Of a stretch of 64,000 nucleotides of DNA, positions 9,234 to 43,673 are shown piece by piece. Every line of letters begins with the position of its first letter. The first letter of the stretch is position 1. The position numbers and the translations under genes are program-made. The notes beneath the pieces were generated by a model. It worked only from the letters and a program-made list of their open reading frames with translations. It did no database searches and was not told where the DNA came from. This DNA is from Rugalucina vietnamica (Eukaryota > Mollusca > Bivalvia > Lucinida > Lucinidae), in assembly GCA_964017185.1 (NCBI GenBank), contig OZ024884.1:18570048-18634047 (forward strand), in the 5' to 3' direction.

Positions 9234-12200
9234 ATGTCAATGTCGCCGATATACACGATTTTGCTCTGCGCTGTGGCAATGTATGCCGCAAACGCGGCAG
9301 GATCATTTCATGGTGGTATAAAAGGTAAAAGAGATCCCTCAACTTGAACAACAACAACTGGAAAATGAAAAACAACAAATAAATTAGAATGTCTTACTTA
9401 AGGCTAAGTTTCCATAGGCAATGTTTCTTCTTCAAAGATTTATTGTGACCATTGCCTTAGATATTTGCCGATGAGACTATGCCACAGATTTAAGTTTACG
9501 CAAATATATTTGAGCCGCCTCATGGGAAAACCAACAATCTGCATAGGCGAAAACAAAGATGCAGATCAGCTTCGCGGTTTGTTTTCGCTACTCGGATAGT
9601 ACAATTCCTCTTCTACTTAAATCCGAAATTTCAAACTTCTAGCTGTTTTCTGTGCTTGTACATGCCGGTTTGTGTCTGACCTGTTCGGAAACCACATTGT
9701 TGGTTTTCCAACGAGGTGGCTCATTTTTCTTTGACAAACCAACTTTGCCAGAGAAAACGTGTCCGTGGAAACTTAGCTTTAAACATACTTACTGTAACGT
9801 AACACTTTCCTGCACTTTACGGCCGCTACTTGATTAAAAGTAAAATTGACAATGTTGCACTGAATTTCATTTTCCGTTTTGCGGTTTTGTCGCAATATTA
9901 ATTCAAATTAGATCGATATTTGTTGTACTTTTATCATATAATTTATTTTATGATCCTTATTTGATTTGTAAATGTACATTTACATACCGAAAGCCCAGTC
10001 CCTCTCTTATATTTCATTGTCACCAGAACAACTCTCAATAACACATAGTTGCCCGAAGGCATCGAAAGTTCCCCTACTTACGACAAACTTACGATTGTCT
10101 TAAGATGACCACCTTAAAATGTACGCCCTTTCTATTCCAGTTACTCAAATCTATCGTCAAGTTTGACATGAAAGGTGCCACTTCGTAAAATAAGACGACG
10201 CTAAGGTGGGCTTGCGTTGACCGTAAAGTTACGATGCTGTTAAGTTGTCACCGTAACTTAAGGTCATTTTCAGTTATTCACCATAGCCCTAAGAGATACT
10301 GTACTTAAGTTGGTCGTTAGTTGGTCTTAAGCCTAAGATGGCTTTGAGTTAACAACCCCTGTACCATTATCTTTCATGATGCCCAGGCCAATCAGTGTTG
10401 ATGCTTCTTAACATTAATTCCGTCCATATTTTCCAGGTTTTTCGCGTGGCGCACAGGTATTACATGGGATACAAGTATTTGGTGAGTAGTGTTCGAAACT
10501 AGCATGGACCTCGCAAATTAACACCGAGGCTTTAAATGTGCAAGTGGGCGGCGTGCGATGTTCTAACTGTTCTTAGCGAAGAGTTTAAGGTGTGGTAGTA
10601 AATGGCGTATGTTTTGGGTCGCCGTCAACTGTTACATGTATAAACCAATCAAAATGTCAGCTATGTTCATGAAGCTGAATCTGGCAGTCATAGAGCTATA
10701 TGAAAGATGTGTATTCCCACAATTATGTCTCTTTTTAAAAGTAACAATTACCACCAGATAAAATATACACAGGCGTGATAGTAGTCTACATGATGGCTAC
10801 CAACAAGGTCGAAGTGGACACCGGTACATAAACAAATAGCAAACAAGCAAATTCAGAGAATTTATGTCCCCCGCCTTGATACATGTAGTTTAGTTACACA
10901 TATATTATCTTACAAAAACATATATCCAAACCACATGCACTTTCTTAGCGTAAATGCCTGAAAAACGACTTAAGTTCAAATTTCGAAAAGTGATAAAAAT
11001 TAAAGTGAGGATTATATCCATACCACATGGGTAAGTTTAAAGCATGGTCAATACATCTGCAAAGTTTCAAAAAAATCAGAATAAAACTGTAGGAGGAGTT
11101 GTGTGCACAAGGTACCCACTGTCCATTCACTTTCATTGTCAAAATGTCCGAAAAAATGACTAAGTTCAAGTTGCGAAAAAAGTCTCAATAATTAACCTGA
11201 GGATTATATCCAAATCACATGTATATCTTCAAAGCATGATTAAAACATCTGTTAAATTATAAAAGAATCGGAATAAAACTGTAGGAGGAGTTGCTTGCAC
11301 AAGGTACCCACTGTCCATACACTTTCATTGTCAATATGCCCGAAAAAATGACTAAGTTCAAATTGCAAAAAAAAGTGTCAAAAATTAACCTGAGGATTAT
11401 ACCCAAATCACATGCACATTTTCAAAGCATTGCTAAGACATCTGTAAACTTTCAAAAGAATCGGAATAAAATTGTAGTGTAGGAGGAGCTGCTTGCACAA
11501 GGTACATACTCCTATAGGGGGACGGAAGGACGGACGGACGGAATGACGGAAAGCCAAAAACCATGTCCCTCCGCTTTTCTTCGAAAAGGCGGGGGATAAT
11601 AAATAACTAGGGTAAATAAATAAATAAATGAAAATATAGGAATATTACTTCTACATGTAATGCACCAGTCATTTGTATCCACCCAAGGGCCGGGGATAGC
11701 GGGAAAACACTGGTGGGGATAGCGGGAACACAGTGGTGGGGATAGCGGGAACACAGTGGTGGGGATAGCGGGAACACAGTGGGGATAAAGGGCCAGAATT
11801 TAACCTCTGATAAATCCCGGCAATGTCGGGATGTGCCGTGGGTTTAATTTCCCGCCAATACTTGGACCCATTAATTCAAATTAGATCGATATTTGTTGTA
11901 CTTTTATCATATAATTTATTTTATGATCCTTATTTGATTTGTAAATGTACATTTACATACCGAAAGCCCAGTCCCTCTCTTATATTTCATTGTCACCAGA
12001 ACAACTCTCAGCTGTTGTTGCACATTATTGTCAGCCTCTGTGGAGCCGGTGCTTTTAGCAGGGATTTTACCACAAATCTGACCCCGCAGTGTCGGGCTTT
12101 AAGCAGGGCTTTAAAAATTGAAAAGTGAAAACCCCGCTATTACCCGGCCTGGGGATAGGGGACGTGGATACAAATGAGCCACCTCGTGGGAAAACCAACA

Positions 12201-15200
12201 ATGTGGTTTCCGAACAGGTCCAACACAAACCGGACTGTACAGTCAAAGAAGACAGCTAGAAGCATGAAATTTCGTATTTAGGAAGTAGAGGGATTGTACT
12301 ATCCGTGTAGCGAAAACAAAGGCGCTGATCAGCTTCGCGGTTACCGCGAAGCTGATCTGCGCCTTTGTTTTCGCATATGCAAATTGTTGGTTTTCCCATG
12401 AAGCGGCTCAAATGACTGGTGCATTAACCACAGATTCATTTACGAAGCAAAACTACTGGTAAGATATAAAAGCTTTTATTAACCATTTAGATCCTAAACG
12501 TGTTAAAACTGCATTTATAATTTTTTTTTTATTTTAGAACATATTATCAAAGACGCAAAGTTCATGTTTAGAAGTGCTTTCGGAGAAAAAGTGTACCTCC
12601 GCAGTGGTGGCTATACACAAGCTAGGGCTGACTTCTATGCTGCTGATCCAAAACAAATAAGAGACATTTCTGTTGTAAGTCAAAGATCATCTCATTATGT
12701 TACGTCTACACTGGGCCACGTTCTCACCACGTGAAGGACCTAGTAAGGACGTGGTGCGGACGTAGTAAGGACGTGGTGAGGACGTAGTGTGAACTTACAA
12801 ACCAGCAATTGTTTGATTTTGACCCCGTCCTCGCTACGTTCTTTAATTAATTAGGACGTAGTAAGGACGTGGTGAGACGTAACACGAAAACACGTTCAAG
12901 CAATAAACAGATTTAACTTAGTGTTGGAAAAAAAAATGAAAAATCTCAGTAGAAAAAAAATGGTATTTTTCTCATTTTTGCTCAAAACATTGATTGTAGG
13001 TATATGTTAGAACCGCAGGTTCTACATGTAACGACAGGTTCTAACGAGTACCCACAATCTATGTTTTGGATGACAAAATAAGGAAAATTGGTATATATGT
13101 ACCCCTTTAAACCCCAGTTTAATTACATAAGCTTGGGTTCAAGGGGATATACTTTTCATGGACGTGTTTTCCTGATGGTTTGGTTGTTCCGTCCTTTCCT
13201 TTAATCTAGAACGTCGAGGCGCGCTTAGATTATTAAAGCCTATGTTACATTTGCCCCGATCATCGTACGATTTTTCGGTCTGCGATTTTCTCTACGATTT
13301 TTAGACATCGTAGGAGATCGTGGGCTACGACGTATGTGTTAACAATTCATACGGGCATCGTGCGATTTTTTGATCTGCCATTTGTCGACGTTCTCATACA
13401 AAAACGCAAGGCGATCGTACGGCAGTCGTATGTCTCCGCAGATAGTACGTAGATATCGTACGGATCCCGTGCGTTGTCCGTACGGAGTCCCTATACGTTT
13501 TGATACAAAGCGCAAGGAGGCAGCACGGTAGTCGTAGGGTCTCCGCAGACTGTTAGTGGATATCGTACGGAGTCCCTTGGACTTCTGACTGACGCCTTGG
13601 TTACATTTGGTCTACGATTAGCTTGCGATGATCGTACGATGCCATTTTTTGCATTTTCGTGCGGCCTCCGCAGGGTGACCTTACGATGTCCCTACGATTC
13701 TACGTCTTCCTACGATCTCCGTAGCTTCTACGATCTTGTAATAGTCTGCACTATTACAAATTTTAAAATCGTAAGACCGTAGACCGTAGACACGTCGTTG
13801 GGCATCATACGGGCACCGTACGGATACCCTGCGATAATCGAGCGGTCACCGCACGATTTATTTTATGATAATTTGGGAACAAAAACCGTACAGTGATCGT
13901 AGGGAGGCCGCAAGAGGTCATGCCTAGTAGGTTACATTTGCCCCGATCATTGTACGATTTTTCGGTCCGCGATTTCCCTACGATTTTTTTAAAAATCGAA
14001 TGTGATCATGGGCTATGACGTAGGTGTTTACAATTCATACGGGCATCGTTCGATTTCTTGTTCTAGCTTTCTTCGATGTCCTGAGTCGGAACTGTTTGGA
14101 GATCGTAGGGAAATCAAAGGGTCTACGCACACTTTAAGTTGAAATCGTACGGAGCCCGTGCGATGGCCGTATCCTTACGATTTCTTGCGGTCTCCCTACG
14201 ATAGCCGTACGATGTTAGGTGTCCGTACGATTTTAATAAACTTGTGATATAACCGTACGGATGCCGCACGATCACCCTAAAGGTCTACGATTATCTTATT
14301 ATTTTAGTTCCCAAATTATCATAAAACCGTGCGGTGACCGCACGATCATCGCAGGGTTTCCGTAAGGCGCCCGTACGATGATGCTACGTACGACGTGTCT
14401 ACGGGCTACGGTCTTACGATTTTTAAAATTTGTAAAAGTGCAGACTACTACAAAATCGTAGAGGCTACGGAGATCGTAGGAAGCCGTAGGAAGTCGTAGG
14501 AAGCCGTAGGAAGCCGTAGAATCGTAGGAGCATCGTAGGGTCACCCTGCGGAGACCGCACGAAAATGCAAAAAATGGCATCGTACGATCATCGCAAGTTA
14601 ATCGTAGGGCAAATGTAACCTAGGCTTAAGCAGATGAACTCTTGTATGGCCCTTCGTTCTATTCCTTTAAAAACTTTATGTTATGCTCATTTATATACAA
14701 AGATGCATGGAAATAAAGCTATACCATTTTTCGAACGAACAGGTAAACAATGGTAAACAAGTGAAATCAGTAACCCTGGGATAGCGTTGCCCGTTGAAAA
14801 AGCAGTACTATTTTAAACTTTGTAGTAAATACGTCATACTATATACCTAAAACGCAGATGTGTCGGTTTTCGTTGAGCGTTGAAAAAGTAGTAATATTTT
14901 AAACTTTGTAGTAAATACGTCATACCATTACCTAAAACGAAGATGTGTCGATTTTCTTTGTTTATAATGGTTTTCACTAAATTAATTTACCATCTACATA
15001 ATTAGCCGGGCTATGAGAAACCCAACAATCTGCTGGTGCAGACCAGCTTCGCGGTGACCGCGAAGCTACTCAGCGCCTTTCTTTTCGCTACACGGATAGT
15101 ACAATTCCTCTTCTTTTTAAATCTAAACTTTCCAGCCTCTAGCCATCTTCTATGCTTGTACAGCTCGGTCAGACCTGGGGGAAACCACATTGTTGGGTTT

Positions 15201-15367
15201 ATCATCACGTGGCTCATACTTATTTTCAGGGACATGGTAAGCAAGGCTCTGTTGGGGATAAGACAATTCAGCTTTATAAGCCAGATGGTTTTATATCGAA
15301 ACCAACATTGGTTATTGAATCAAAGAGAGGCAATTTCCCGGATGTACGGGTCATATACGAGGATTGA
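9234..15367 (+). CDS. Gene A: small secreted protein of unrecognised family, four exons
   Basis: Exons: 9234-9324 (91 nt, ends phase 1, donor GTAAAAG), 10437-10481 (45 nt, acceptor TTTTCCAG, donor GTGAGT), 12538-12674 (137 nt, acceptor ATTTTAG, donor GTAAGT, ends phase 0) and 15230-15367 (acceptor TATTTTCAG, stop TGA). All phases join in frame and give about 136 aa. Residues 1-22 form a signal peptide (hydrophobic Y-T-I-L-L-C-A-V-A-M, then A-A-N-A-A-G). The mature part has A-F-G-E-K-V-Y-L-R-S-G-G-Y, A-R-A-D-F, and in exon 4 G-H-G-K-Q-G-S-V-G-D-K-T-I-Q-L. Gene B at 21108 shares these motifs, the exon 4 start and the phases, which supports real coding sequence. A TTTCAG just before the ATG hints at a 5'UTR intron. 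There are no Cys residues in the mature part, and I see no known domain. Introns are full of repeats. CAC-3 begins 25 bp after the stop, inside any 3'UTR. Confidence 0.8.
9512..9722 (+). mobile_element. HP2 MITE with half its hairpin deleted, in gene A intron 1
   Basis: Starts GAGCCGCCTCATGGGAAAAC and ends GAGGTGGCTC. The inner hairpin is reduced to CTTCGCGG followed directly by TTTGTTTTCGCTACTCGG, so one arm has been lost, as expected from replication slippage at a cruciform. Confidence 0.9.
9896..10037 (+). repeat. Repeat shared with 11874-12010 (element N1 fragment)
   Basis: About 137 bp beginning AATTCAAATTAGATCGATAT and ending CACCAGAACAACTCTCA is nearly identical to 11874-12010. A related stretch lies on the minus strand near 61428-61500. 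The rest of intron 1 of gene A (to 10436) shows nothing definite. Confidence 0.75.
10860..11600. repeat. Tandem-unit element in gene A intron 2
   Basis: Bounded by TGTCCCCCGCCTTG (about 10865) and its inverse AAAGGCGGGGGATA (about 11584), with a GGACGGACGGACGG tract next to the right end. Inside, a unit of about 190-200 bp is repeated roughly three times; each contains GTAGGAGGAGTTG, CACAAGGTAC, CACTGTCCAT and CATTGTCAATATGCCCGAAA. The element is of unknown class. Confidence 0.6.
11655..12426. mobile_element. Element N1 with inverted ends, interrupted by HP2
   Basis: Left end TAATGCACCAGTCATTTGTA and right end ACTGGTGCATTA are inverted repeats. The interior has four units of GGGGATAGCGGGAACACAGT at about 11706-11785, the 137-bp segment shared with 9901, and a GGCCTGGGGATAGGGG block. 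The HP2 copy 12176-12409 is inserted between GATACAAAT and AAATGACTGG. A second partial N1 lies at 61342-61500. Confidence 0.65.
12176..12409 (-). mobile_element. HP2 hairpin MITE nested in N1
   Basis: Reverse-oriented copy from GAGCCACCTCGTGGGAAAAC to CATGAAGCGGCTC with a full hairpin (TTCGCGGTTACCGCGAA). AAAT is present on both sides, consistent with a short target duplication. Confidence 0.9.
12925..13177 (+). mobile_element. HP1 hairpin MITE in gene A intron 3
   Basis: Divergent copy. The hairpin loop region reads AGAACCGCAGGTTCTACATG and the right tip is CATGGACGTGTTTTCCTGATG. The left tip is not clear. Confidence 0.75.
13244..14637. mobile_element. CGTACG-rich foldback element
   Basis: Outer ends are GCCTATGTTACATTTGCC and GGGCAAATGTAACCTAGGC. 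The interior is built almost wholly of short self-complementary words (ATCGTACGAT, CCGTACGG, CTACGATTCTACG). The end sequence GTTACATTTGCCCCGATCAT occurs again at about 13931, so two related units are joined or nested. A segment with TTCTGCGGCCTCCGCAGGG (13640-13870) is inverted at 14299-14600. No transposase is present. The small open frames here are mirror images of the same palindrome, not genes. Confidence 0.7.
15004..15215 (+). mobile_element. HP2 MITE abutting gene A exon 4
   Basis: Left end GCCGGGCTATGAGAAACCCA (degenerate); right end TCACGTGGCTC at 15215. Only ATACTTATTTTCAG (14 nt) separates it from exon 4, so the branch point and most of the pyrimidine tract of that acceptor must lie within the MITE. 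Confidence 0.85.
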
Positions 15368-15391
15368 CGGATTCACATGGTGATAAACTAT

Positions 15392-16724
15392 CACGGCTAA
15401 CAAACCTTTAAATGCGTAACCGCCGGTTAAGAAAGAAAATCCGATTCACGCCCTTCCGGTTCCGCATATGAAGACCAAGAAAAGGTAAACAAAGCATACA
15501 GTACTAGGATCGATTGATGATTATATTTTAGTACAGAAATATATCGATTATCTATGAATGCTATTTTGTCACTTATTTACTATTGTAACTCAGCACCAAA
15601 GTAGCTCGCAAAATAATTTGATGGTCTTTGAGTTATTTATTCCCTTCTTCGAACCTGGTGTTCCAACAAGACCAAAGCCGGCGAAATACAACAAAAAATT
15701 GGACAATTTGCTGGTAAATATCAAATTTTAGTGATTGTTCCACGACAAATTTACAGATATGTATTAACTAAATTGCATCTGATGTCTGTGCCAGTATTTC
15801 GTTGTGTTAGTGTCCGTCATTATCGATTTGAAGGGAAGGAAAAGATGGGTACGCATTTAATCATTAAAATATGAAGGATATATTTCAAGATACGTTTGAA
15901 AACCTCAACCTGTTCAAGTTATGGTATTTATTTCCCTGTAAAGCGTTTTGAAAGACATAAAACCAAGAAAAAATAAATTAAAGTATACAGAATGCTGAAA
16001 AATCGTCTTCATGAACAGGAATATCATGCATGTGAACTATTGCATTACATGTATTCATAGACAGTTTGTATTATTTTATATCGAACATTTTCACTGCAAA
16101 TATCACAAACACACCAAATTTGAGTAAGCAACTATTAAGAAAGGACGAGAGAATGTGGCAATAATCTTCCAGCGTAAAACAATTAACAAAAACAAAAACT
16201 TTAATACATGTGTTCTATAATGACTATATTGCTATCATTCTAATGATTAAATTCGTAACCGAAATGTTGACACAGCTTTTAACCTCATATGCATAGAATG
16301 CATTGGCCAGAGGCAACGAAACTGTCACCATACCTCACACAATGTTAAAATCATCTGCGCACTGTATTTCTTTCCGTTAATATGGACGTAATGAGCGGAA
16401 ATCTAAAAATATCCCTGCGACTGACCCACATTTTCGTCGTGTACAATGCAATCCCAACATGTGTTTTGGGGTAGGGAATAAAAATCATGATTATAAAGAA
16501 AAAAATCTGGAAATCCTTTGGGGTCCAAATATAGCAATGTCTTACTAATAAAATAGCATTGAGAGAATTATAATATTTGTCTTCGAATCGAAATATTTTA
16601 CTCGGAAACACGAGCTGCAAAAGTTTGTTTACCTTTTGTTGGTCATCTGATGCGAAACCGGAAGGACATGAATCGGATTTCTTTTCTTAACCGCGGTTAC
16701 GCATTTAAAGGTTTGTTAGCCGTG
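15392..16724. mobile_element. CAC-3 element, 5-bp target duplication
   Basis: Left end CACGGCTAACAAACCTTTAA and right end TTTAAAGGTTTGTTAGCCGTG are inverted; the arms match over about 110 bp (to ~15500 and from ~16617). ACTAT flanks both sides (15387-15391 and 16725-16729). The interior is AT-rich and shows no transposase. Confidence 0.8.
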
Positions 16725-16729
16725 ACTAT

Positions 16730-21107: not shown

Positions 21108-24100
21108 ATGAATACCTATCACTTTGTATTAACTTTGTTGGCATGTTTTATTTTCACTGGCTTTGGTGAGTAGTAAATTAGACTATATCAGTTTAACAAT
21201 TATGAAAAACGGAATTAGCCCATTGACAAATAGACTTCCCCGTCCCTTATCAATAAGATGGGCCTACTTTAACTTTAGGTGCATCAGGAGTTATTTTTAA
21301 CATTTTACTTTATTTTTCAACTTCCTCTAACATACGGCGTACATAATAGTCACAGATGAGACACCACTTTGTATGGCAGACATTTAGAACGTGGCGTAAC
21401 GATTGACACTATCACGCCCGGTAAAGTGCAAATTGACCACCCCCGGTGGTCAGCGCAAAAAAAAAAGTTTATTTATATCCGGTGGTCGTTTTGAGAGTTT
21501 CCTGTTATTAGTTTTCGCGAGTTAATGGTAAGATGCTTTTTTATTAAAAACGTAATATAAAAATCAACGGATGTCAGGCTATCAGTTTTTTGCCTTTGAA
21601 TGTCTACCCGAAGTGGTAGTTGAAAAAAAAAAAACCGTTCCACTGCAATCGCTTGCGCCCCGTTTGATCGGTGCTGATAGGCCTTTGCAAGATTTCTGTA
21701 ACCAATGGTCTTTGAAGTAAGTTAAATGAACACCAAAAAGGTACAAGTAGGCAAAGATCAGGAAAAGGCGCAATCAGAAAAAGATTCCCACTCCAAAAAC
21801 CGAGGTGGGAAAAAACCAAACTAACAATCTGGGGCCAGTTGTTCAAAACTAACGACGTCGTTAGTTAACGTTTCGTTAAAATTTCAAACATTAATATTAC
21901 AAATACACTGTTATTTTTTGTTGAAAAAATGTGAGAATCCTTTGCACTGCAAAGGATTCTCACATTTTTTCAACAAAAATTAACAGTGTATTTGTTACTT
22001 TAGCTGATATTTGCTTAACAAATTTATGTCTTAACGATATCGTTAAGCTAATGATGCTTTGAACAACTGGGTCTAGGTACTTATACCATGAAAACATTTC
22101 GTAAGCCGAATGAGCAGCTATTTTCCCAATAGGTGGCCACTCAGTTACCTTAACTTAACTGAAAATATGAAAACATACATAAGGCGCCAACAGCACAAAA
22201 ATATTTTAAACATCAAGACATAAAACAAAAAGAACCACCACAGAAGTATCGACTTGGAACGATCAGTAACACAAAGTTACTGGCGGGTTTAAATCGATTT
22301 TACATGACCATAACCTCACCCTCAGCTTCTGCAGTGGTTCATAACATTTAGTTAGTTCTTCGGTCTTCGTGGTGAATCTCTAACTAGTCAATGGATCATC
22401 AAGAACAAACAAATAATCATGATAAAGATCCTGATGAATCTAAAACCAGGACTCGCCGATTCAGTAAGCTGCCCGACGATGGAGATCCCTGGGCGCCGAA
22501 TAACTTACTAACTCCGGAGCAAAAGAAAAACATCAGTTGGACCCCGGTGGGCCAAGCAACAGACAAGAAGCTCCGGCCCCAACCAACTAAAATGAATAGC
22601 TTTAAGTCGACGCCCGACCCACCGGCGTGCAATTAATGAAGGCAGCATAGTTATCAACCGTGATTGGGTTAAAAACTTAGCATGCAGACTGTCGCATAAC
22701 ATTCAAGTTATAACCTATACGTCTGTAACGTGTTATGCTTTCAGACATATAATTTTAAACCCATTCAAGCTTTCCTTTCAACGTTTAGATCGATTTTGTA
22801 CCGGTAGTCAACTTGAAATTGCGGTGGTCGTATTGATCAATAGGGATTACAATGTGAATTTTCACCGTGAGAAAAAGACAGCAAAATGCAACTTGAGGCC
22901 ATTTTCTGTTAGGGGTCAGGGCAAAATTAATACACAGCGACATCACAATAATTTGTCACCTAAAGTATGGCAATTCGGAGAAACGAAGTACAATCGTGTG
23001 CGAGGAATGCGGGGAGCAATTCACCCTGGACCATGGACACTAACGAGGCATCGTCGACGCAAGTTCTTATGATGTTTATTAAAAGAATAACAGTGCCAAC
23101 GGAATATCATGTTTCTTTTAAGAAAAGAAGATTCTAAGTTATTTGTACGAGAAAATTTCACAAATACATTTTGTGATTATGTGTCTTTGTCTGTCGTTCA
23201 TTATAAGCGCTTTTGTGAGTTAGTATTTGTATTGATGATGTAACTAAAAATTAGTAATAAATACATACGATATTGCTACACTATGTTTCTGAAGACTTAG
23301 TGCTAATGTACAAACGAAATCAAATTTTGAGAACATCGACGGCATTTATTTTGATGTGGCTGTGACTAGAATGCATCTCCATTAATTTTGCCCCTACCCT
23401 CAACAGAAAACGACATCGAGTTGCATCGGTAGTCCACATTGATCAATACGACCACCACAATTTCAAGTTGACCACCGGAATAAAATCGATATATTAAGTG
23501 TTGAACGGAAAGCTTGAAAGATTTAAAAATTATTTCTGAAAAGCTTATTTAGTGTTCATGTAACTTACTTCAACGACCATTGGCTACAGAAAGCTTGCAA
23601 AGGCACAATCAGGGCATTCTAGCATGTATTTGCCCAGATTCTACTTTCGTTTTCACCACCGACCAAACGGGGCGCAAGCGATTGCAGTGAAACAGTTTAT
23701 TTTTTTCAACTACCACTTCGGGTGTATATTCAAAGGCAAAAAAAAAAACTGAAAGCCTGACTTTCTTTGGTTTTTATAATACGTTTTTGATCAAAAAGCA
23801 TCTTTTCGTCAACATCCACTTAACTCGCGAAAACTAATAACAGGTAACGCTCAAAACTACCACCGGATATATATCAACTTTTTGACGTGGACCACCGGCG
23901 GTGGTCAATTTGCACTTTACCGGGTGTGACTATACCTTAGTTCAGAGTGGTCAAACCGCTTACCTTTAGAAACATATTTCTAAGCAATGGTTTAATTTTT
24001 TGACCCCGTTTAGGAATGTGTCTCAATGTAGACTTCTGGTATAATTTCTCGAAATTGCAGCACAATAGTTTGGCTTTCGTTGCCGGTTTAAAAAGGACTT

Positions 24101-25009
24101 TGGGATCAGAAAAGATATCCAGAGTGTTCAAAACACTTACGTGGTGTTAGCCCAGTCCAGTGAATAAGGAATTCAAGTATACCTAGTAAATATTAACTGT
24201 ATAGTTGTACATGTAGTTTTGTTTACCTTTGTCAAAAGTCGGTTCTAATAACAAGTTCATGAGGTGCCGCCTAAACAATAACACAAATTCAGAGATAGAT
24301 TTAAAAGTATTGCTTCGTCTTTATTTGATTTGTTTGTGCTGTGATTTAGTGTCCCAGTCAACAGCTATGGTCATGTCGGGACGTTATCTCCATTTATGGG
24401 ACTAAAATTAGGATGCCATGACATCCAAAATGTACTTCAAATATAACCACAAAAGCCATTAAGGCTTATATGTGCCTATGATTGGGTGGTTTGCTTTGAA
24501 CCACTTTTCCTGGACAGGCTCATACCTGATCGGTTGACCAGAAATCAGACAGCCAGTCAGTAGTGTAGTAGCCTTGTATGGGGTACAAGCAGCCCATCTA
24601 TTTTTAGACCCCAATTGGCGGGGCCCATATTTTTAGTTTGAGCGGCATGTTAAAAGTACATGTACATGTATCGTAAAACTAAAATCAATACCCTGTTTTA
24701 TGTATAGGCAGTTATAACAACATCTAATTGACATTATTATTAATACTTATAATTATTACTATTAATAATAATACCATTGTAATCATATCATGTTTTATTG
24801 GATTTTTTTTATCATTTTTTCAATGTTCAGGTCACGCTAACAAAGTAGAAGCCGGATTAAAAGCAATCAATACACTGCTCAAGAAAGCCACATTTTGGCA
24901 TAATTTTGCATATGGAGAAAAAGTTTATCTGAAAAAGGGAGGTTATCAACAAGCTCTTATTGACTTTGAAAGTGTTGTCGATCCTAAAACTGTAAAGACG
25001 CTGGGTATA
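21108..25009 (+). CDS. Gene B, exons 1-2: secreted paralog of gene A
   Basis: Exon 1 is 21108-21165: ATG, then a signal peptide of about 19 residues (N-T-Y-H-F-V-L-T-L-L-A-C-F-I-F-T-G-F-G), phase 1 donor GTGAGT. Exon 2 is 24831-25009 (acceptor TGTTCAG, donor GTAAGT, ends phase 0) and encodes 60 residues with A-Y-G-E-K-V-Y-L-K-K-G-G-Y, Q-A-L-I-D-F and V-D-P-K-T-V. Exon 2 covers the sequence that gene A divides between its exons 2 and 3. Phases agree with gene A throughout. Intron 1 (3.7 kb) holds CAC-2. The natural partner is the exon at 43533, 18.5 kb downstream; the product would be about 125 aa. Function is unknown. If that join is wrong, this is a truncated gene. Confidence 0.75.
21413..23928. 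mobile_element. CAC-2 long-TIR element, 5-bp target duplication
   Basis: Left end CACGCCCGGTAAAGTGCAAA and right end TTTGCACTTTACCGGGTGTG are inverted, with arms alike over roughly 310 bp (to ~21725 and from ~23570). ACTAT flanks it on both sides (21408-21412, 23929-23933). A second inner pair of inverted segments (ACTTGAAATTGCGGTGGTCG near 22810, its inverse near 23445) lies inside. The interior also contains repeat D1 (21736-22350), itself interrupted by a palindromic MITE. Two short open frames (22391-22636, 22824-23072) match no transposase I know. Confidence 0.8.
21831..22071. mobile_element. Near-perfect palindromic MITE in repeat D1
   Basis: Ends GGGGCCAGTTGTTCAAA and TTTGAACAACTGGG. 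The centre is a hairpin with arms of about 45 nt (AATGTGAGAATCCTTTGCA and its complement). It interrupts D1: the D1 copy at 31035 reads straight through AACAATCAGGTACTTATACC. TCT on both sides may be the target duplication. Confidence 0.8.
23937..24140. repeat. Dispersed repeat D2
   Basis: Contains TTTTGACCCCGTTTAGGAAT and TGGCTTTCGTTGCCGG. Related sequence occurs at 53516-53740, 56250-56470 and (end only) 63714-63790. The class is unknown. The remainder up to 24830 shows no further feature apart from a fragment of a SINE-like tail (CAGCTATGGTCATGTCGGGA) near 24360. Confidence 0.5.
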
Positions 25010-26984: not shown

Positions 26985-28545
26985 TTGTCTGTTTGTTTGT
27001 TTGTTCCCCTACTCCTCCCAGGTCCTTGGGCCGATCTTCACCAAACTTGGAGGGAAGGTGGAGGGTGGCAACGGATATTAGCTTGAGGGGTTCATTTTTT
27101 GAAAGGTCAAGGTCATCAAGGTCAAAGGTCAAATTTATGGGGTTTTTTTCTGTTTGTTCCCCTACTTCTCCCAGGTCCTTGGGCCGATCTTCACCAAACT
27201 TGGTGGGAAGGTTGAGGGCGGCCCCGGATATTAGCTCGAGGGGTTCATTTTTTAGAGGTCATGGTCATCGAGGTCAAAGGTCAAATTTCTGTGTCTCGGC
27301 AGTCCTTGGTCCGATTTGCATGAAACTTGGTGAGTGTATACAGGTTGATCCCTGATTAAGATTTATGGGTCCAATTGGGTCAAAGGTCAATGAGGTCAAA
27401 GGTCAAATTGATGTGTTGTTTTTTCTGTTTGTTCCTCCTAGGTCCTTGGGCCGATCTTCACTAAACTTGGAGGGAAGGTGGAGGGCCGCCCCCGGATATT
27501 AGCTTGAGAGGTTCATTTTTTGAAAGGTCAAGGTCATCGAGGTCAAAGGTCAAATTAATGTTTTTTTTCTGTTTGTTCCCCTACTTCTCCCAGGTCCTTT
27601 GGCTGATCTTCACCAAACTTGGTGGGAAGGTGGAGGGCGGCCCCGGATATTAGCTCGAGGGGTTCATTCTTTAAAGGTCAAGGTCATCGAGGTCAAAGGT
27701 CAAATTTCTGTATCTCGGCAGTCCTTCGTCCGATTTGGATGAAACTTGGTGAGTGTATACAGGTTGATCCCTGATTAAGATTTATGGGTCCAATTGGGTC
27801 AAAGGTCATCAAGGTCAAAGGTCAAATTTATGTTGTTTTTTCTGTTTGTTCCCCTACTTCTCCCAGATCCTTGGGCCGATCTTCACCAAACTTGGTGGGA
27901 ATGTGGAGGGCGGCCCCGGATATTAGCTCGAGGGGTTCATTTTTTAAAGGTCAAGGTCATCGAGGTCAAAGGTCAAATTTCTGTATCTCGGCAGTCCTTC
28001 GTCCGATTTGGATGAAACTTGGTGAGTGTATACAGGTTGATCCCTGATTAAGATTTATGGGTCCAATTGGGTCAAAGGTCATCAAGGTCAAAGGTCAAAT
28101 TTATGTTTTTTTTCTGTTTGTTCCCCTACTTCTCCCAGGTCCTTGGGCCGATCTTCACCAAACTTGGTGGGAATGTGAAGGGCGGCCCCGGATATAAGCT
28201 CGAGGGGTTCACTTTTTAAAGGTCAAGGTCATCGAGTTCAAAGGTCAAATTTCTGTATCTCAGCAGTCCTTGGTCCGATTTGGATGAAACTTGGAGAGTG
28301 TATACAGGTTGATCCCTGATTAAGATTTATGGGTCCAATTGGGTCAAAGGTCAAGGTCATCGAGGTACTAATAATTTGAGCAACGTTTGTCTGTTTGTTT
28401 GTTTGTTTGTTCCCCTACTCCTCCCAGGTCCTTAGGCCGATCTTCACCAAACTTGGAGGGAAGGTGGAGGGCTGCCCCGGATATTAGCTTGAGGGATTCA
28501 TTTTTTGAAAGGTCAAGGTCATCTGTGTATGTCTTATTTGAGATT
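26985..28545. repeat. AGGTCA-rich minisatellite
   Basis: Unit of about 272 bp (some half units of 140-157 bp) repeated roughly five times. Each unit contains TGTTCCCCTACTTCTCCCAG, CCGATCTTCACCAAACTTGG, GGTTGATCCCTGATTAAG and AAAGGTCAAGGTCATCGAGG. The word AGGTCAAAGGTCA occurs intact at 27119, 27271, 27393, 27540, 27690, 27812, 27963 and 28085. Open frames across the array repeat with the unit and are not conserved in start or end. Confidence 0.9.
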
Positions 28546-34683: not shown

Positions 34684-34748
<65 letters not shown>

Positions 34749-35702: not shown

Positions 35703-35740
<38 letters not shown>

Positions 35741-36028: not shown

Positions 36029-36714
36029 GGATAACCGATCACGCTCGTGTGCGAAAACTTTGTAAGACGTAGAATCAAAAACTGCACATCAAATAGCAAT
36101 TAAATGTTTCAAATCGTAATCTTGCAATGTATACATGTATAAAGTTTTCTTTGCGACCACGCTCGATATGACTTGAAATGTGTCAAAACGTTGTAAGACT
36201 TAGAATCAAAAACTGCACATCAAAGAGCAACTAAATGTTTCAAATCGTAAATCTTGCAATATATACATGCATAAAGTTGTCTGTGCGTTCACGAAAGACA
36301 CGTGAAAATGTAGCTAAATAGAACCCATGTACGTATATACACAGTGTACATGTGCCAGTATGAAAACATCACATGGCGATAACAAATAGCTGATATCGGG
36401 TTTTCCCACCAACAGTTAAGGTCATATAAAGACGGGACCTCGGCCCGGAATCGAACGTGCGACCCCTAGTTATTCACACGAGTATTTATCAGGTGATTTT
36501 AAGAGGCGACTGACTGAACTTCTACGACATGAAGTCCTCTACGAATTGCGCGCGCGAGTGTGTGTGGGTGGGTGAGGGTGGATGTAGATGTATGTGCGCG
36601 CGTAAAATTCTGAATGTTTTCGGGTTAAACTTGGTATGCAAAGAAAAAGAACTAGATATTTCTCAGTTTAATGAACATTTATTTTCTTGAAAATAATATT
36701 GTGTTTACTTGTTT

Positions 36715-36905
36715 TTGGTTTGTTTGTATTGAGGCGTAACGGCCCTGTCAACAATTTTTCAGTCATGTCGGGACGGAGCCAACTTTTCCTTGGTTTAACC
36801 AGTACTGTAGGAAGCTAATATGTCTTACTCAAGGACACAACACGGTGACGCCTGTGGGGATCGAACCCAGGACCTTTCGATTCGGAGTCATCGCCATCGC
36901 GCCTC
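36715..36905 (-). mobile_element. SINE-R (Arg-tRNA-like head)
   Basis: Reverse copy: tail TGAGGCGTAACGGCCCTGTC, centre CAGTCATGTCGGGACGGAGC, TACTCAAGGACACAACACGG, and head complement GGGATCGAACCCAGGACC with TCGGAGTCATCG over the anticodon region. Confidence 0.75.
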
Positions 36906-36951
36906 TTTTGTGTTAAATTGAAGTTTAATTATATTTTTTTTATTTCTATTT

Positions 36952-37132
36952 TATTTCATGAAATCAGTTTTACGTCCCTTTCAAGATTATTTCAGCTCAT
37001 ATGAGATGGATCAATCATTAGGTGGGCGAAAACGGGAGGACCCCGACAAAAACCACCTGGCACACCCGAAAAAAGAACTTAGCTTTTCTCACATATGGCC
37101 AGACCGAGGCTCGAACCCACATCAGACACAGC
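36952..37132 (-). mobile_element. SINE-L copy
   Basis: CAGTTTTACGTCCCTTTCAA, GCGAAAACGGGAGGACCCCG, TCTCACATATGGCCAGACCG and GGCTCGAACCCACATCAGAC, adjoining the inner end of the BIG-T 2 right arm. Confidence 0.75.
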
Positions 37133-37821
37133 GGTGAGATATATTTATTTGAATTTAACCAAATAACAGCACGCATACTACAATAATAAATGAGGATCAG
37201 AAAAAAGCATATGGCTTGCAAAATTCATCTCATATATCGTAAGTCATATGACTGAAATACTGTTGAAACACCAACTAAATAAACCCCCATCAAGCTTTCG
37301 ATTATATGTTATAAATGTATGTATAAACATGCCAAAATGAATTATGTGCCCTCACGAGACAACACGTGATACCGTAGCTTTCCACCTAATGTACATGACA
37401 CTATACTATTTGAGTTGCCTTACGTCCGCGGAACACTTTTCAAGTCATTCAGTGTGGCCAACATATTCTAGCCCATTATTCCTGTACAAGTCTTCAGTCA
37501 CAGTATAAATATTTTCATGTCTCAAAGAAAGCAATGTTGACTTGAGGATCGCTCGACGATCCGCTCTTCTACCGAAAAATACGATTGAACACCCGATTTC
37601 AATAGGTTAAAGGTCAAAAAGAGAAAAACATTCATGTGGTCTGCCTTCTCACTAGACACTTCAATTTCTTTACGATTTTAGTATTAAATGCAGTCGTACA
37701 TTTCATGATTCTTGCATTTTGCCAAAAAATATAATCAGCTGATAATATATATTTTTTCATTGCCTAAGCTTTATTGTCACATGGAAGGCAACAAAAGAAA
37801 AGAATAAAACAAAAAAGAGGT

Positions 37822-37893
37822 CCGACTGAGACTCGAACCTAGGGCCTTTCGCTTTTTATTCTTGCACGCTACCTACTGAGCTACAAGGATAGC
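37822..37893 (-). repeat. tRNA-like block, BIG-T 2 right arm
   Basis: Complement of an A box (CTACCTACTGAGCTACA) and of a B box (GAGACTCGAACCTAGG), facing inward. Confidence 0.65.
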
Positions 37894-38498
37894 TGTCCCA
37901 GACGATTTCATTTTGTGCCTGTCCTGTTTAATTCGCCTCTGTTTGCTATCGATAATTCTTGACCAAGTAAGGGTTCATATCACCCCTCGTCTTCGTTTCA
38001 GATATGACCTGAGAAGTAATCGCCCATGTTGCCGACAAACGCAAGTGGCAGCGGCAGCAAGATTTACGTTCAAAAGTGAAAAATGTCTAGTAGTGGCATT
38101 TGGTGTGATAGTTACACAGTGCGCACGACGAAATTCAAATTCAACAAACCGCAGTAAACTGGATAAAACACATTTACTAAATGTTTCTGATTTTATGTAG
38201 TGTTGTTTTTGCATTTTTACATCTCACCATTAGCAAATGTTATTTGGAGGCAGAAAATTAAAGCTTTAAAACGCAGGCTGTGTCATTAAAGCTATTATTA
38301 TTAGACATTTTTCACTTTTGAACGTAAATGCTGCTGGCGCTTGCGGTTATGACTTTCCGTGTGATGGGGGACGACTCGTGAGGGCATATTTGAGACGAAG
38401 ACGAGGGACGATATGAAGAATTACTTAGTCAAAACTACCAATAGCCCGACGAAGACGAATTAAATAAGAGAGTCAAAAAATGAAATAGTCTAGGACGT

Positions 38499-38574
38499 GT
38501 AGCTGTGTAGCTCAGTAGGTAGCGTGCTTGGAATTGAAAGCGAAAGGTCCTGGGTTCAAGTCCCGGACGGATCA
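38499..38574 (+). repeat. tRNA-like block, BIG-T 3 left arm
   Basis: The best-preserved copy: TAGCTCAGTAGGTAGCGTGC and GGGTTCAAGTCCCGG. The T stem pairs (CTGGG with CCCGG, one G-U), but the acceptor ends do not. Confidence 0.7.
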
Positions 38575-39472
38575 CTCTTTTCTTTATTTGTCTCTCTTGT
38601 GACAAAAAAGCTTTGGAAATAAAACATATATTATCAGCTGATTATATTTTTGGCAAATACAAGAATCATGAAATGCCCTACTACATTAAATTCTTAAATC
38701 GTAAAGGAATTGAAGTTTGAGACGGCAGCCCACGCGTATATTTTCTCTTGTATTGGGAGCTCGATCGTATTTTTGGTATAAGAGCTGATCTATCCTCACG
38801 TCAATATTTCTTTCTGGGAGACATGAAAATATTAATATACTGAAGGCTTGTACAAGCATAATGTGGCTAGGATAAGTTAGCCACCCTGAACGACTTAAAA
38901 ATGTTTTCCGCGGACGTAGGCACTAACTCAAATAGTACACTGTATAGTGTACATGTAAAGATATATGTATATTTATTAGGTGTAAGACCTACAGTTCCAC
39001 GTGCTGTCTCGTGAGAGAACGTAATTTATTTTGGCATGTTTATACATGTATTCCAAACAGATACTCGAAATCTTGATATTATTTATTTGGTTGATGTTTC
39101 GTTTTGAGTCCATTAGACAATCATCTGCAAGTCATAGTGCGATATCCTAGCTACATTTTGCATAGCCATACAAATAAGTTGAGGTTTCGTAGACCTTCCA
39201 CAGTATTTCAGCATTTTGAATGCGATAATTACGATTTTTGGGATGTTTTTTCCAAGTCAAAGGCTTTCTTTCTGATCCTCATTTATTCTCTTGAATTATG
39301 CGTGATGTTTATCTGGTTGAATTCAAATAAATATAATTAAACTTCAAACTAAAACAATATCATTTTCAAGAAAATGAATGTTTATAGACTGAGAAACAAA
39401 CAGTTCGTTTTTTTCATAACATGACGCGTACCTTGCTTAACCCTAAAACAGGACGACAATATTCTTTACGCG

Positions 39473-39515
<43 letters not shown>

Positions 39516-39553
39516 GCGCACGCACGCACGCACGCGCGCGCACACACGCACGC
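39473..39553. repeat. (CA)n / (CG)-rich microsatellite
   Basis: About 20 CA dinucleotides grading into CGCACGCACG. The open frame across it (Thr-His repeats) is an artefact. Confidence 0.95.
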
Positions 39554-39673
39554 ATCCAAGTTCCGTAGATGACTTCATGTCGCATTGGTTCAGTCAGTCG
39601 CTTCGTAAAATCACATGTCGAGAATAAATACGTACATGTAGTTGATATAAGACTGGTACAAAATTATTTTTAG

Positions 39674-39873
39674 GGAGCGCGGTGGCGTAGTGGTAGGGCA
39701 TCTGACTCCGAATCGAGAGGTCCTGGGTTCGATCCCCAACAGGCACCACCGTGTTGTGTCCTTGAGCAAGACACATTTAGTCCTTACTAACTGGTTACAC
39801 CCAGGAAGCGTTGGCTCCGTCCCGACATGACTGAAAAAAATGTTGACTGGGACATAAAGCCTTAATAAAAAAT
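39674..39873 (+). mobile_element. SINE-R, full length
   Basis: The head GTGGCGTAGTGGTAGGGCAT holds an A box and GGGTTCGATCCCC a B box. The anticodon loop ACTCCGAAT suggests tRNA-Arg (CCG). Then TCCTTGAGCAAGACACATTT, GTCCCGACATGACTG and the tail GTTGACTGGGACATAAAGCC. Confidence 0.8.
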
Positions 39874-40329
39874 GATTTTGATAAGAGCATCTGACTCGTT
39901 AGCTCAGGAGGTTGAGCGCGAGTAGGAAACGCCTATTTTTATTGGATTAATATTTTTTTTCGCATCTTTAACAATATTCTTGCGTAGAAAACAACAACAA
40001 AAAAAAAACAATCTTAAAACCTATATGCATTGGTAAAATGCAAAAATAAAGAAATCCAGACAGCAATTAAACATATAAATCGTAAACAATGTTATCATAT
40101 GCAATGGTAACAATGATTATTGTTGTCTTCCCGTTTAATTGTCTGATTCTAATGGAACAATGAACCAGAAGTGGCCTTTGACACGACAATGTTTACAAAA
40201 TCGCATCATCAACCGTCATGTTTGCCATTAAAGATACATTACGCGTTCAATGTGAGTTGGCCTTACAAATGCTTGGCGCGAATAAAACAGCTTCCAGTGC
40301 AGAATATTATTTTTTAGACACTCGTGTGT

Positions 40330-40600
40330 ATAACTAGGGATCGCTAGTTCAATTCTGAGCTGACCATGGCTTTATGGTGACACTATAAACAGAGATCCCG
40401 TCTGCATATGACGATAACTGTTGGTGGGAAAACAACTACATGCGCTGATCCAGAAAATTTTCTCAGGGGGGGTCCAAGTTCCCAGAAGGGGTCTGACGGA
40501 AAATTTCAACATGGCAAAATTAATAATCTGGCAATTCCAGGGGGGGGTTCGGACCCCCTGTCCCCCCCCCTCCTCTGGATCCGCCCATGAACTATCAACT
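40330..40600. repeat. SINE-T fragment and unknown repeat
   Basis: An inverted SINE-T remnant (40330-40437) is followed by a G/C-rich block at about 40447-40590 (GATCCAGAAAATTTTCTCAG, GGGGGGGTTCGGACCCCCTG) that looks like another dispersed element. Both strands read open by chance. Confidence 0.5.
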
Positions 40601-40719
40601 ATTTGTTATCGCTATGTGACTTTTAACATACTGGTGCATGTATATACGTACATTGGTTCTGTTAAGCTACATTTCACGTGTTTTTCGTGAACACACAGAA
40701 TTTTTTTTTACATGTAAAC

Positions 40720-41310
40720 ATGGCAAGATTTACGATTTGAAACATTTAGTTGATCTTTAATTTTATGTGCATTTTTTTATTCTACGCCTTACAACGTTTT
40801 GACACATTTCAAGTAATATCGAGCATGGTCTGTTATCCTCATTAGGATAACATGTCCGTGACATGTTTATCCCATTGAACAACGCTTTTATAAAGCAAAA
40901 GTTGAGTATGCAGGGGTATACCTAGTTTTTGCTCACATGAGCCCTTTGGCTCAAAAGGTGAGCTTATAGGATGGCCATGCCCCGTCGTCCGTCCGTCGTC
41001 GTCTGTCAACAATTTCCATGATCTTCTTCTCTGAAACAGCTTGGCCAATCAAAGTTAAAACTGTTTGCGGAGCATTCTTAGGAAGGGGGAACGAAATTTG
41101 CATAAATGGACCAGGTCACATGACCAAGATGGCCGCCTTGGCTATAAATAGCAAAAACCGTTATAATTTTTCTTCTCCAGAACCAGAAGGCCTATGATTT
41201 TGTAACTTAGCATGAAGCATCAAACAATATTAAAAGAACTACAAAGTTTGTATAAATTATTTCGCTGGGATGACCTTGACCTATTTTACGGTAAGATCAA
41301 CTTACAGGTG
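40720..41310 (-). repeat. Inverted copy of the HP1 / 'GGCGGCCATC' unit
   Basis: Reverse complement of the segments at 30770-30930 and 30150-30733: ACAACGTTTTGACACATTTC, GGATAACATGTCCGTG, GTATACCTAG, GGTGAGCTTATAGGATGGCC and CAAGATGGCCGCC. It mirrors the two direct copies at 30 and 35 kb. Sequence from 41311 to 41904 shows nothing recognisable. Confidence 0.7.
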
Positions 41311-41904
41311 CGTTCAATTATTAATATACCCCTGCGATATTCAGAAATAAATTGACAACTTTTCTTGTTTTTGAACAATCGTCACTGGCAAGAAATGGAC
41401 GACTGGATGAATTTGTTTATATAATGTGTTAGGTATGAGTATAAATATTTACTCTGTATATCAAACCCCTAGATCTTATTATGTTGTATGCCTAATTTGA
41501 TTACATAACCATATAGAACCAAATTTTTAACAAACAATTCGCTGATTTTCGAGTTTCAAAGATTCCACAAGGAATCATGGTTAATGAATTGTAATTATAT
41601 CTGTAATTGATGACAAAATAACTATTTTTGTACTACGGCTGAAAATTTGGTGCCTTTATGAGCACTATTGACAAAGTTACACCCTGAGATTTTCTTTCAC
41701 TGTACATTTTAGAATTTCATGTTTAAGCGGTTGTTACAATATAAAACTAAGCATGTCAGTGTTATTTTGCAAGACAACTAATATTGTACCTTGAGGTTTT
41801 TACGACCAAAGCTTGCTAGTGAGTTCCCTCATGAGGTAAATATGTCTTAAGGCACTGTGGAGTCACCAATGGCTTTGTATTCTGTCAGAACGTTCTCACA
41901 ATCT

Positions 41905-42178
41905 ATGTAATATACAATCCATGCAACATACAGAGAATTTTTAGGTCAACAAATTGAAAATTTGATTGGAAAAATTTTGAAGTTATTAATATTTTAGATC
42001 AAAACATACATTGTGGGTACACGTTAGAACCGCCTCAGCGAGGCGGTTCTAACGAGTACCCACAATGTATGTTTTGGATCAAAAATAAGAAAATTAGGTA
42101 TACCCTGCATACCCCAGTTTTGTTATATAAAAGTGGGGTTTAAGGGGGTATACATTACACGGACCTGTTTTCCTGATG
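41905..42178 (+). mobile_element. HP1 hairpin MITE, complete, with compensated hairpin
   Basis: Full copy with the right tip ACGGACCTGTTTTCCTGATG. The hairpin reads CATACATTGTGGG on the left and CCCACAATGTATG on the right; most other copies have CATAGATTGTGGG and CCCACAATCTATG. Both arms therefore carry the matching change. Confidence 0.85.
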
Positions 42179-42385
42179 TGTGGCTAGGCATATTGTAGCT
42201 ACATGTAGGGTATTGCCCCCATCGCTCTTCCTACTGTCGAATGGACTCAAAACGAGACATCGACAAAATAAACATCGTTCGCTCACGAGATAGCACGTGT
42301 AACTGTAGTTTTACATCTAATAATACACATATATCTGAACTTGTACACTATTCTTTTTGATTTGGTGTCTTGTGTATTTGTTAAA

Positions 42386-42609
42386 ATTCAGTTTTACGTC
42401 CCTTTCAAGATTACTTCAGCTTATATGAAAAGCACCAAACAGTAGGTGGGGCGAAAACGGGAGTACCCCGAGAAAAACCGCCTGGCACACCCAAAGCAGA
42501 ACTTGGCCTGTCTCACATGTGGCCATTGTGGGTCTCACACCAGACACAACGGTGAGATGATTAAGTGTTTATGAAACAGCGCTCTTAACTGCTCGGCCAC
42601 GGGGGACGC
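42386..42609 (-). mobile_element. SINE-L, full length, in BIG-T 3 right arm
   Basis: CAGTTTTACGTCCCTTTCAA through GCGAAAACGGGAGTACCCCG to the head complement GCTCTTAACTGCTCGGCCAC. The B-box region is damaged (GTGGGTCTCACACC). Confidence 0.8.
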
Positions 42610-43005
42610 TTGCGTATTTTTAGTCATTAGAGGCGGTCAGCTTATCCTATCCACATTATCTGTACCAGTCAGTCAGGAAATAAATGTTGACGTTAGGATC
42701 GGTCGAGGATCCGTTCTTCTGCCGAAAATGACGATTGAGTTATCGGCTTCAATGGGTGAAAAATCAACAAGACCTATAAAAATACTTATACATGCGGTAT
42801 GCTTTCTCACTAGACAGTTTAATCCAGAAACTTACGATTTTAGTATTAAATGCAGCAGTGAATTTTGTGATTCTTGCATTTGCCAATAGATAATTTTATT
42901 TTCTTTTTTTTTCCTTATTTTTTTCATTTTTTTAAATTTTCTAAGCTTTATTTGTCACAGGTGCGAAAAAAGGAAGAAACAAAGAAAAGGAAAATATTTT
43001 TTGTC

Positions 43006-43077
43006 CTACCCGGACTCGAACCCAGGACCTTTCGATTCTATGTCTTGCACTCTACCTACTGAACTATTCAGCTAGGC
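43006..43077 (-). repeat. tRNA-like block, BIG-T 3 right arm
   Basis: B box complement CGGACTCGAACCCAGG and A box complement CTACCTACTGAACTATTC, facing inward from the tip at 43273. Confidence 0.65.
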
Positions 43078-43329
43078 GTCCTGGACAATTTCATTTTTTT
43101 TGCATGTCTCATTTAATACACCTCCGGTGGGTGTTGGTAGTTTTGACTAAGTAATTCTTCATATCGCCCCTCGCCTTCGTCTCAAATATGCCCTCACGAG
43201 TCGTCGCCCATCACACACAAAGTCGTAACCGCAAGCGCCAGCAAAATTTACGTTCAAAAGTGAAAAATGTCTATTAGGGGGGAATTGAAACAACTAAAAT
43301 CAGAATCAATTTAAATCAGAATCTGAACT

Positions 43330-43519
43330 CCGATACAAACCGGCCTATACATCCACAATAGAAAGCTAGAATCTTCAAATTTTGGATATAAGTAGAAGAG
43401 GAAATGTACTATCCGTGTAGCGAAAACAAAGGCGCTGATCGGCTGTGCAATTACTGCACAGCTGATCTGCTCCTTTGTTTTCGCATATGCTACAATCCGG
43501 TTTTCTCATGACGCGGAGC
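43330..43519 (-). mobile_element. HP2 MITE abutting gene B last exon
   Basis: Reverse-oriented, truncated at its outer end. It has the unique half (AAGTAGAAGAGG, GTACTATCCGTGTAGCGAAA) and a changed but still complementary hairpin (GGCTGTGCA / TGCACAGCTG). It ends CATGACGCGGAGC, 13 nt (ATTATTGTTTCAG) before the exon. Confidence 0.85.
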
Positions 43520-43532
43520 ATTATTGTTTCAG

Positions 43533-43673
43533 GGCTATGGGAAGACGGGAAAAGTTGGTGATAAAACAATCCGGCTTCTTGAACCCAAAGGTCTCGTCCA
43601 GATGCCTGCGATTTCAGTCTCTGATACGAGTAATCAGGGTCTACCCTGGACTATCATCAAATATAGAAGTTGA
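43533..43673 (+). CDS. Gene B last exon
   Basis: Acceptor TTGTTTCAG, phase 0, stop TGA at 43671-43673, 46 residues. It begins G-Y-G-K-T-G-K-V-G-D-K-T-I-R-L and ends T-I-I-K-Y-R-S. It aligns from its first residue with gene A exon 4 (G-H-G-K-Q-G-S-V-G-D-K-T-I-Q-L) and has the same phase, so it is the equivalent terminal exon. It completes exons 21108-25009 in frame if spliced over 18.5 kb. It could instead belong to a separate paralog whose upstream exons were lost during expansion of the transposon block. Confidence 0.75.
   Translation, partial: GYGKTGKVGDKTIRLLEPKGLVQMPAISVSDTSNQGLPWTIIKYRS

Follow-up and report, generated by a model that had tools for sequence, protein, structure and literature searches.

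The stretch of DNA analysed here (the window; 64,000 nucleotides, C16:18,570,048-18,634,047) comes from contig OZ024884.1 of the lucinid bivalve Rugalucina vietnamica, whose genome assembly comprises 1.09 Gb in 47 contigs. It carries two genes, A and B, which a preliminary description of the sequence had taken for tandem paralogues from a small, lineage-restricted family of secreted proteins with no known domain. We find that the core of both products is, as judged from sequence profiles, homologous to the C-terminal domain of bacterial polymorphic toxins. In our view A and B are probably members of a large animal family of secreted type, built on a bacteria-derived toxin domain and acting by binding and not by catalysis.

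Gene A has four exons, separated by introns in phases 1, 1 and 0, and encodes a product of 136 amino acids; gene B has three, with introns of 3,665 and 18,523 nt in phases 1 and 0, and encodes 125 amino acids. The exons are listed here in window coordinates, with E values from the bacterial-only profile hidden Markov model (HMM) that is described below.

9234..9324, + strand: gene A exon 1, ATG and hydrophobic leader, donor in phase 1
10437..10481, + strand: gene A exon 2, donor in phase 1
12538..12674, + strand: gene A exon 3, coding for the N-terminal half of the toxin-like domain (GEKVYL, GGYTQARADF), open reading frame at E 3e-4
15230..15367, + strand: gene A exon 4, coding for the C-terminal half of that domain (GHGKQGSVGDKTI) and ending in the stop
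21108..21165, + strand: gene B exon 1, ATG and hydrophobic leader, donor in phase 1
24831..25009, + strand: gene B exon 2, coding for the N-terminal half of the toxin-like domain (GEKVYL, GGYQQALIDF), donor in phase 0, open reading frame at E 0.003
43533..43673, + strand: gene B exon 3, coding for the C-terminal half of that domain (GYGKTGKVGDKTI) and ending in the stop, 3' of the 18.5-kb intron

All seven exons of the preliminary description were verified with their GT-AG borders and phases, and both joined frames are open from ATG to stop; the motifs GEKVYL, GGY.QA..DF and G.GK.G.VGDKTI that it named are likewise present in both genes. Its view of A and B as tandem paralogues is borne out by reciprocal tblastn matches within the window, between the core exons (E 5e-9 and 1e-8) and between the terminal exons (E 7e-6 and 2e-5). 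An HMM of the family also recovers all seven exons from the 2,974 open reading frames (ORFs) of the window, at E 4e-27 to 0.016 with the next match, at E 4.6, being noise, although this recovery is partly circular because the underlying alignment contains A and B themselves. Each protein has a single Cys, located in the N-terminal hydrophobic segment. That hydrophobic leader is present in both A and B, and is the one feature that supports calling them secreted.

Several repeats lie within the two genes. In both genes the acceptor of the terminal exon is preceded, at a distance of no more than about 20 nt, by copies of an interspersed repeat, apparently the same one (A, window 15035-15225; B, about 43390-43520, this copy being judged by eye). 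Intron 3 of gene A holds an element (window 13589-14630) with inverted arms of up to 126 nt and 91% complementarity. In intron 1 of gene B, a stretch of about 2.5 kb (window 21412-23929) with nested inverted arms of 46-71 nt and 83-92% complementarity looks like a foldback-type element, and contains an open frame of 82 amino acids at 22388 which matches no Pfam family at E 0.01.

A large family in the host genome

Further copies of both genes exist. The chromosome of the window carries a second full A-B pair (C16:5,871,180-5,885,182, minus strand), with all seven exons in identical phases. The last intron of its B gene measures 526 nt, and the same exon order across this short intron argues that the exon at 43.5 kb in the window belongs to B. 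Since the second pair is about 12.7 Mb from that of the window and on the opposite strand, the pair appears to have been copied as a unit or later separated. There is also a full-length intronless copy of A (C1:35,137,187-35,137,591), in which the three coding introns are missing at the predicted borders and one codon fewer is found at the last of them. The missing introns suggest a retrocopy, whereas an acceptor-like TTTTTCAG directly before the ATG (locus L002, C1:35,135,687-35,139,091) and 400 nt of downstream sequence free of any long poly(A) tail speak against one. Finally, P0007, a B-like protein, is encoded by one frame of 117 amino acids from contigs of at most 1,542 bases; set against the 3.7 and 18.5 kb of the B introns in the window, this length points to a transcript or a processed copy.

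Selection on the protein, which had been argued from conserved splice phases alongside differing residues, is upheld by the ratio of non-synonymous to synonymous substitution (dN/dS, NG86) within gene types (0.18-0.26). The ratio is 0.18 for A against the A of the second pair (bootstrap 0.10-0.30), 0.26 for the two B genes (0.14-0.50) and 0.26 for A against its intronless copy (0.15-0.45). Between A and B, the comparison that the preliminary description had proposed as a test, the value of 0.30 is also below 1 but says little because synonymous sites are saturated (dS 2.3).

The idea of a small family represented by two genes does not survive a search of the host genome, which gave at least 42 matches to one divergent member, itself included, at E 0.01 or better. 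These are spread over twelve contigs and clustered, for example at the following places.

C1:54.27-54.29 Mb: host family cluster
C16:19.54-19.61 Mb: host family cluster
C2:43.22-43.25 Mb: host family cluster
C13:13.13-13.20 Mb: host family cluster

Nearly all of the matches (40 of the 42) are free of stops in the matched stretch, and most span the domain in one open frame. The 42 include neither A and B nor the genes of the second pair, the intronless copy on C1 or the members on C8 and C14, so that the family occupies at least 49 places. Thirty members were fetched, 12 of the 42 matches having yielded no locus, and 27 were examined after three with broken or truncated frames had been omitted. 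The usual layout is a leader, a variable stretch and a domain of about 95-110 residues, and A and B form a shorter, intron-bearing branch. By hydropathy, 24 of the 27 have a hydrophobic N-terminus. With a generous pattern, for which no chance rate was computed and by which two members could not be scored, 15 of the 27 show a basic site that lies after residue 20 and ahead of the domain. Three loci, L011 on C8 and L078 and L084 on C16, are family members with an early frame end or internal stops; these broken frames suggest birth-and-death turnover.

A bacterial toxin domain and its animal counterparts

The connection with bacteria emerged from a divergent host paralogue (154 amino acids, with an RRKR site), which matched a single plasmid record at E 0.03 in tblastn. 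The matched region is the extreme C-terminus of a Duffyella haemagglutinin-repeat protein, with a small gene 6 nt downstream, and has 30 close relatives, three of them with a precomputed VENN pre-toxin domain. A pattern scan of species genomes, with patterns that held S[ST]DGRPTLE or GKNRIKFRY-like words, gathered 51 bacterial loci. The domain occurs in at least seven bacterial phyla, the number spanned by the 40 loci that were placed in our tree.

In 49 of the 51 bacterial loci the domain ends no more than 6 residues from the stop, in 39 at least 60 residues lie in frame upstream of it, and in 32 an ORF of at least 100 amino acids starts within 60 nt downstream. All but four of these 32 ORFs belong to one homologous, immunity-like cluster (28/32; examples are L022, L023, L025, L031, L040, L045 and L054), in which a C-terminal HY...T..D.I(D/E) stretch can be seen by eye; four immunity-like proteins, three of them from the cluster, had no match in Pfam or NCBIfam at E 0.01. 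Five of six carrier ORFs scanned pass the cut-offs for LXG with PT-TG, for Fil_haemagg_2 with PT-VENN or for RHS, and the sixth gave sub-threshold, VgrG-like matches only. A carrier, a C-terminal toxin and a downstream immunity gene make up the layout of polymorphic toxin-immunity modules as set out in the available text of the source (PMC3482391), and the position of the domain, the carriers and the adjoining immunity-like ORF together argue that the bacterial loci are of this kind. The domain itself is unnamed: 36 bacterial sequences searched against Pfam gave no consistent family, the matches being to ten families with one or two members each and a best E of 0.014.

Several comparisons connect the animal and bacterial sets. 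Profile-profile alignment of four animal with six bacterial sequences gave a probability of 96.5, rising to 97.9 (score 73.1) for eight against 36, where the best of 300 column shuffles scored 21.1 and the reversed profile 12.3. With 33 animal and 40 bacterial sequences the probability was 98.9 and the score 95.6 (best of 100 shuffles, 15.4), and removal of the A/B branch left these at 98.7 and 89.6 against the bacterial set. Single animal sequences matched the bacterial profile at probabilities of 81-96. An HMM made from bacterial sequences only was then run on 4,085 sequences, of which 11 were animal proteins, 2,974 the ORFs of the window and 1,100 shuffles, and ranked all 11 animal proteins (E 4e-7 to 0.011; three are single-exon frames) above the best control at E 1.4. 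The two core-exon ORFs of A and B also rank above that control; the five other exon ORFs, terminal exons included, do not appear in the list. The core shared by both sets (about 80-90 residues) has in common the G, A and F of GG..QA..DF, the G before VGD, a Pro and the final Tyr.

Modelling agrees with this. AlphaFold folded P0007, aligned with 40 bacterial and seven other animal rows (48 rows), with a mean predicted local distance difference test (pLDDT) of 92.3 and a predicted template modelling score (pTM) of 0.83, compared with 38.0 and 0.31 for the protein P0001 with two animal rows. This contrast supports the link without proving it, because the query proteins differ and the bacterial rows may drive the P0007 model, a reservation that counts against our interpretation.

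Other identities were considered. Against Pfam, NCBIfam, PHROGs and PDB sequences, A and B gave weak matches only and no named family. No named family matched their close relatives either, and the preliminary description of a lineage-restricted family with no known domain is half right; it has to be amended in that the core is homologous to an unnamed bacterial toxin domain. Foldseek searches of the model against the PDB and viral models returned no confident fold (best E 0.02 and 0.033), and no BECR-fold nuclease toxin was noticed among the 50 matches listed in each of the two fold searches. For beta-gamma crystallin, Protein S appeared at E 0.2 and 0.033 only, and the resemblance was judged to be local. 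Designed TPR proteins matched at E 6.5e-6 over the whole chain, through repeated 8-9-bit matches around the Gly-Gly/Ala helix; the model, in which a single helix of this kind precedes four strands, lacks the tandem helix-turn-helix repeats of TPR proteins, and this candidate was rejected. A match of A to a Photobacterium plasmid (E 0.2) was dismissed as chance after the region had been read. B had no match in phages, and in viral contigs the animal profile found no relatives and the bacterial profile one.

Elsewhere in the window are two tandem arrays (27526-28523, a 272-nt unit in 3.6 copies; 56457-56887, a 213-nt unit in 2 copies with 95% matches) and, on the - strand at 51325-52245, a 306-codon frame for a Tc1/mariner-type transposase (DDE_3 at E 7e-15, HTH_Tnp_Tc3_2 at E 3e-11).

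Conserved residues, mode of action and known parallels

Conservation within the animal family was scored over 33 rows, namely five from the A/B clade and 28 other members. The scaffold positions G, A, F, G and Y are kept in all 28 and in all five, and the Pro in 25 of 28 and again in all five. The polar near-invariants of the bacterial domain (T.G; the Arg of VR; S.DGR.T.E; the Arg before the final Tyr) fare differently, and A and B do not match this set. None of the 33 animal rows retains the glycine of TKG or the final Arg. No member of the A/B clade keeps the Arg of VR, the Glu of PTLE or the Gly before it (the G of S.DGR.T.E), which survive in 6, 15 and 17 of the 28 others, respectively. 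The Ser and Asp of SSDG are kept in one and two of the 28 and in none of the five, the Arg of S.DGR.T.E in one and none, its Thr in nine and two, and the T of T.G in three and one.

A scaffold that is kept while most of the near-invariant polar residues are replaced would fit binding rather than catalysis in A and B, and a secreted-type, expanded family would suit a role in defence. That A and B lack the bacterial catalysis, bind instead outside the cell and find in defence their most natural setting is, taken as a whole, a tentative proposal that falls a little short of an even chance. Other members, which keep more of the bacterial residues (the Glu in 15 of 28, for example), could still be active; an early idea that the whole active site had been lost in all animal members proved too broad on account of that same Glu.

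The alternative that the animal proteins are working secreted antibacterial toxin enzymes, with the same chemistry as the bacterial domain, strikes us as unlikely, though worth serious consideration. A large, clustered family with leaders would suit a defence arsenal, and purifying selection and the retention of the PTLE Glu and the preceding Gly in more than half of the other members point the same way. The pattern of losses speaks against it, since the A/B clade has no PTLE Glu at all, the TKG glycine and final Arg are gone from every animal row, and the SSDG Ser and Asp are all but absent. A less probable reading of the same pattern, a retained scaffold with an altered presumed active site, is that secreted 'blank' copies serve as decoys, occupying bacterial immunity proteins or entry receptors or blocking toxins of this class, with the teneurin domain perhaps an older product of the same fold; we consider this improbable.

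Comparison with known systems places the family in context. The animal core shares a homologous stretch of about 80-90 residues with the C-terminal domain of bacterial polymorphic toxins, but whereas the bacterial domain is fused to a carrier, A (136 amino acids) and B (125 amino acids) have only a leader and a short stretch upstream, and they are without most of the polar near-invariants. A known parallel is the C-terminal region of teneurins, which comprises an antibiotic-binding-like domain and Tox-GHH, the latter an HNH-type domain according to the accessible parts of two sources (PMC6425310, PMC3482391); here too a part of a bacterial toxin is reused outside animal cells. In the portion available, the latter source presents teneurin as an animal domestication of a bacterial polymorphic toxin, with the toxin domain described as inactive (PMC3482391). 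Teneurins are very large and keep an RHS-type shell, whereas the members of the A/B family are short and stand alone. The fold model shows what may be a loose similarity to teneurin chains in the structure search; the PDB profile searches with the family gave no sequence match to teneurin. An older animal domain with this fold, the antibiotic-binding-like domain of teneurin for example, might have given rise to the family without any separate transfer; the loose model similarity is in favour of this and the missing sequence match against it, and we think it quite improbable.

Toxin domains listed in the same available text as transferred to animals include Ntox18 in Branchiostoma and Tox-ART-RSE in hexapods and molluscs (PMC3482391). 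These would have followed the same evolutionary route as the A/B family but are different domains, and no Pfam Ntox model was among the matches of the 36 bacterial sequences. The phage-type lysozyme which bivalves have acquired, as given in the part of the report at hand (PMC5303276), is likewise a protein of bacterial or phage origin in an invertebrate, but is unrelated to A and B. In the accessible portions of the literature on polymorphic toxins and on gene transfer from bacteria to animals or molluscs, no description of this family was found and the motif DGRPTLE was unmatched.

Origin of the family

It is highly likely that the domain entered the animal lineage from bacteria. The direction is indicated by the wide bacterial spread of the domain together with carriers and immunity-like genes, and contamination is argued against by introns, chromosome-scale contigs and several copies. 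In the sequence of events that we envisage, the C-terminal domain of a bacterial toxin would have entered an animal lineage and gained a leader and, in many of the members, a pro-region carrying a basic site as well; the family would then have multiplied in clusters in the host genome, with introns present in the A/B branch. A and B would be secreted and work outside the cell, where they may bind a ligand, or serve as a defence protein against microbes, in place of the original catalysis.

A midpoint-rooted tree was computed from 48 rows (40 of the 51 bacterial loci and eight animal sequences) and 95 columns. It uses the joined A and B in place of the window-exon rows of alignment A8, which also holds 40 of the 51 loci; alignment A7 consists of 34 of the 51 loci and two proteins, and of proteins P0010-P0039 only parts of a few enter A5 and A7. 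All eight animal sequences form one group, set apart by a long stem and supported at 94/91 (93% of the 200 bootstrap trees); this is compatible with one transfer but does not prove it.

Besides the reservation over the two fold models, a number of points weigh against our interpretation. No bacterial sister group is resolved, the stem leading to the animal sequences is long, and the tree, rooted at its midpoint and based on 95 columns, comes with a warning from the tool about long branches, two long animal ones meeting. Neither the PDB profile searches nor the fold searches matched a solved structure convincingly. The patterns used to collect the bacterial loci inflate the conservation of the S[ST]DGRPTLE and GKNRIKFRY-like motifs and, since they contain some of the near-invariant polar motif, impose part of its invariance; the proposed loss of catalysis would rest on residue conservation alone. 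Secretion was judged from hydropathy only, 12 of the 27 members have no basic site by pattern (two of these being unscorable), and none is evident in A or B on inspection of the sequence.

Convergence of a purely animal family on the form of a bacterial toxin tail would account for the low pairwise identity, the few conserved positions and the unresolved bacterial sister, but it is very improbable given profile scores that exceed the best of 400 shuffles three- to sixfold, the independent test with the bacterial-only HMM and the confident joint AlphaFold model. That the exons are remnants of mobile elements or pseudogenes is barely credible, for although the introns are full of repeats and at least two other family members carry stops, A, B and their relatives have no Pfam mobile-element match at E up to 10, frames and splice sites are intact in two pairs, and dN/dS within gene types is low.

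If derivation from a bacterial toxin domain is accepted, an orphan family of secreted animal proteins has been traced to one particular, unnamed type of weapon used between bacterial strains, adding a large and diverse case to the known domesticated polymorphic toxins. On the bacterial side, the results point to a widespread toxin domain with an immunity-like partner, unmatched by Pfam and NCBIfam models in the sets scanned. It is now possible to set the bacterial domain directly beside the more conserved animal members and the A/B type, a comparison that would show whether animals reuse bacterial weapons as enzymes, as binders or as decoys.

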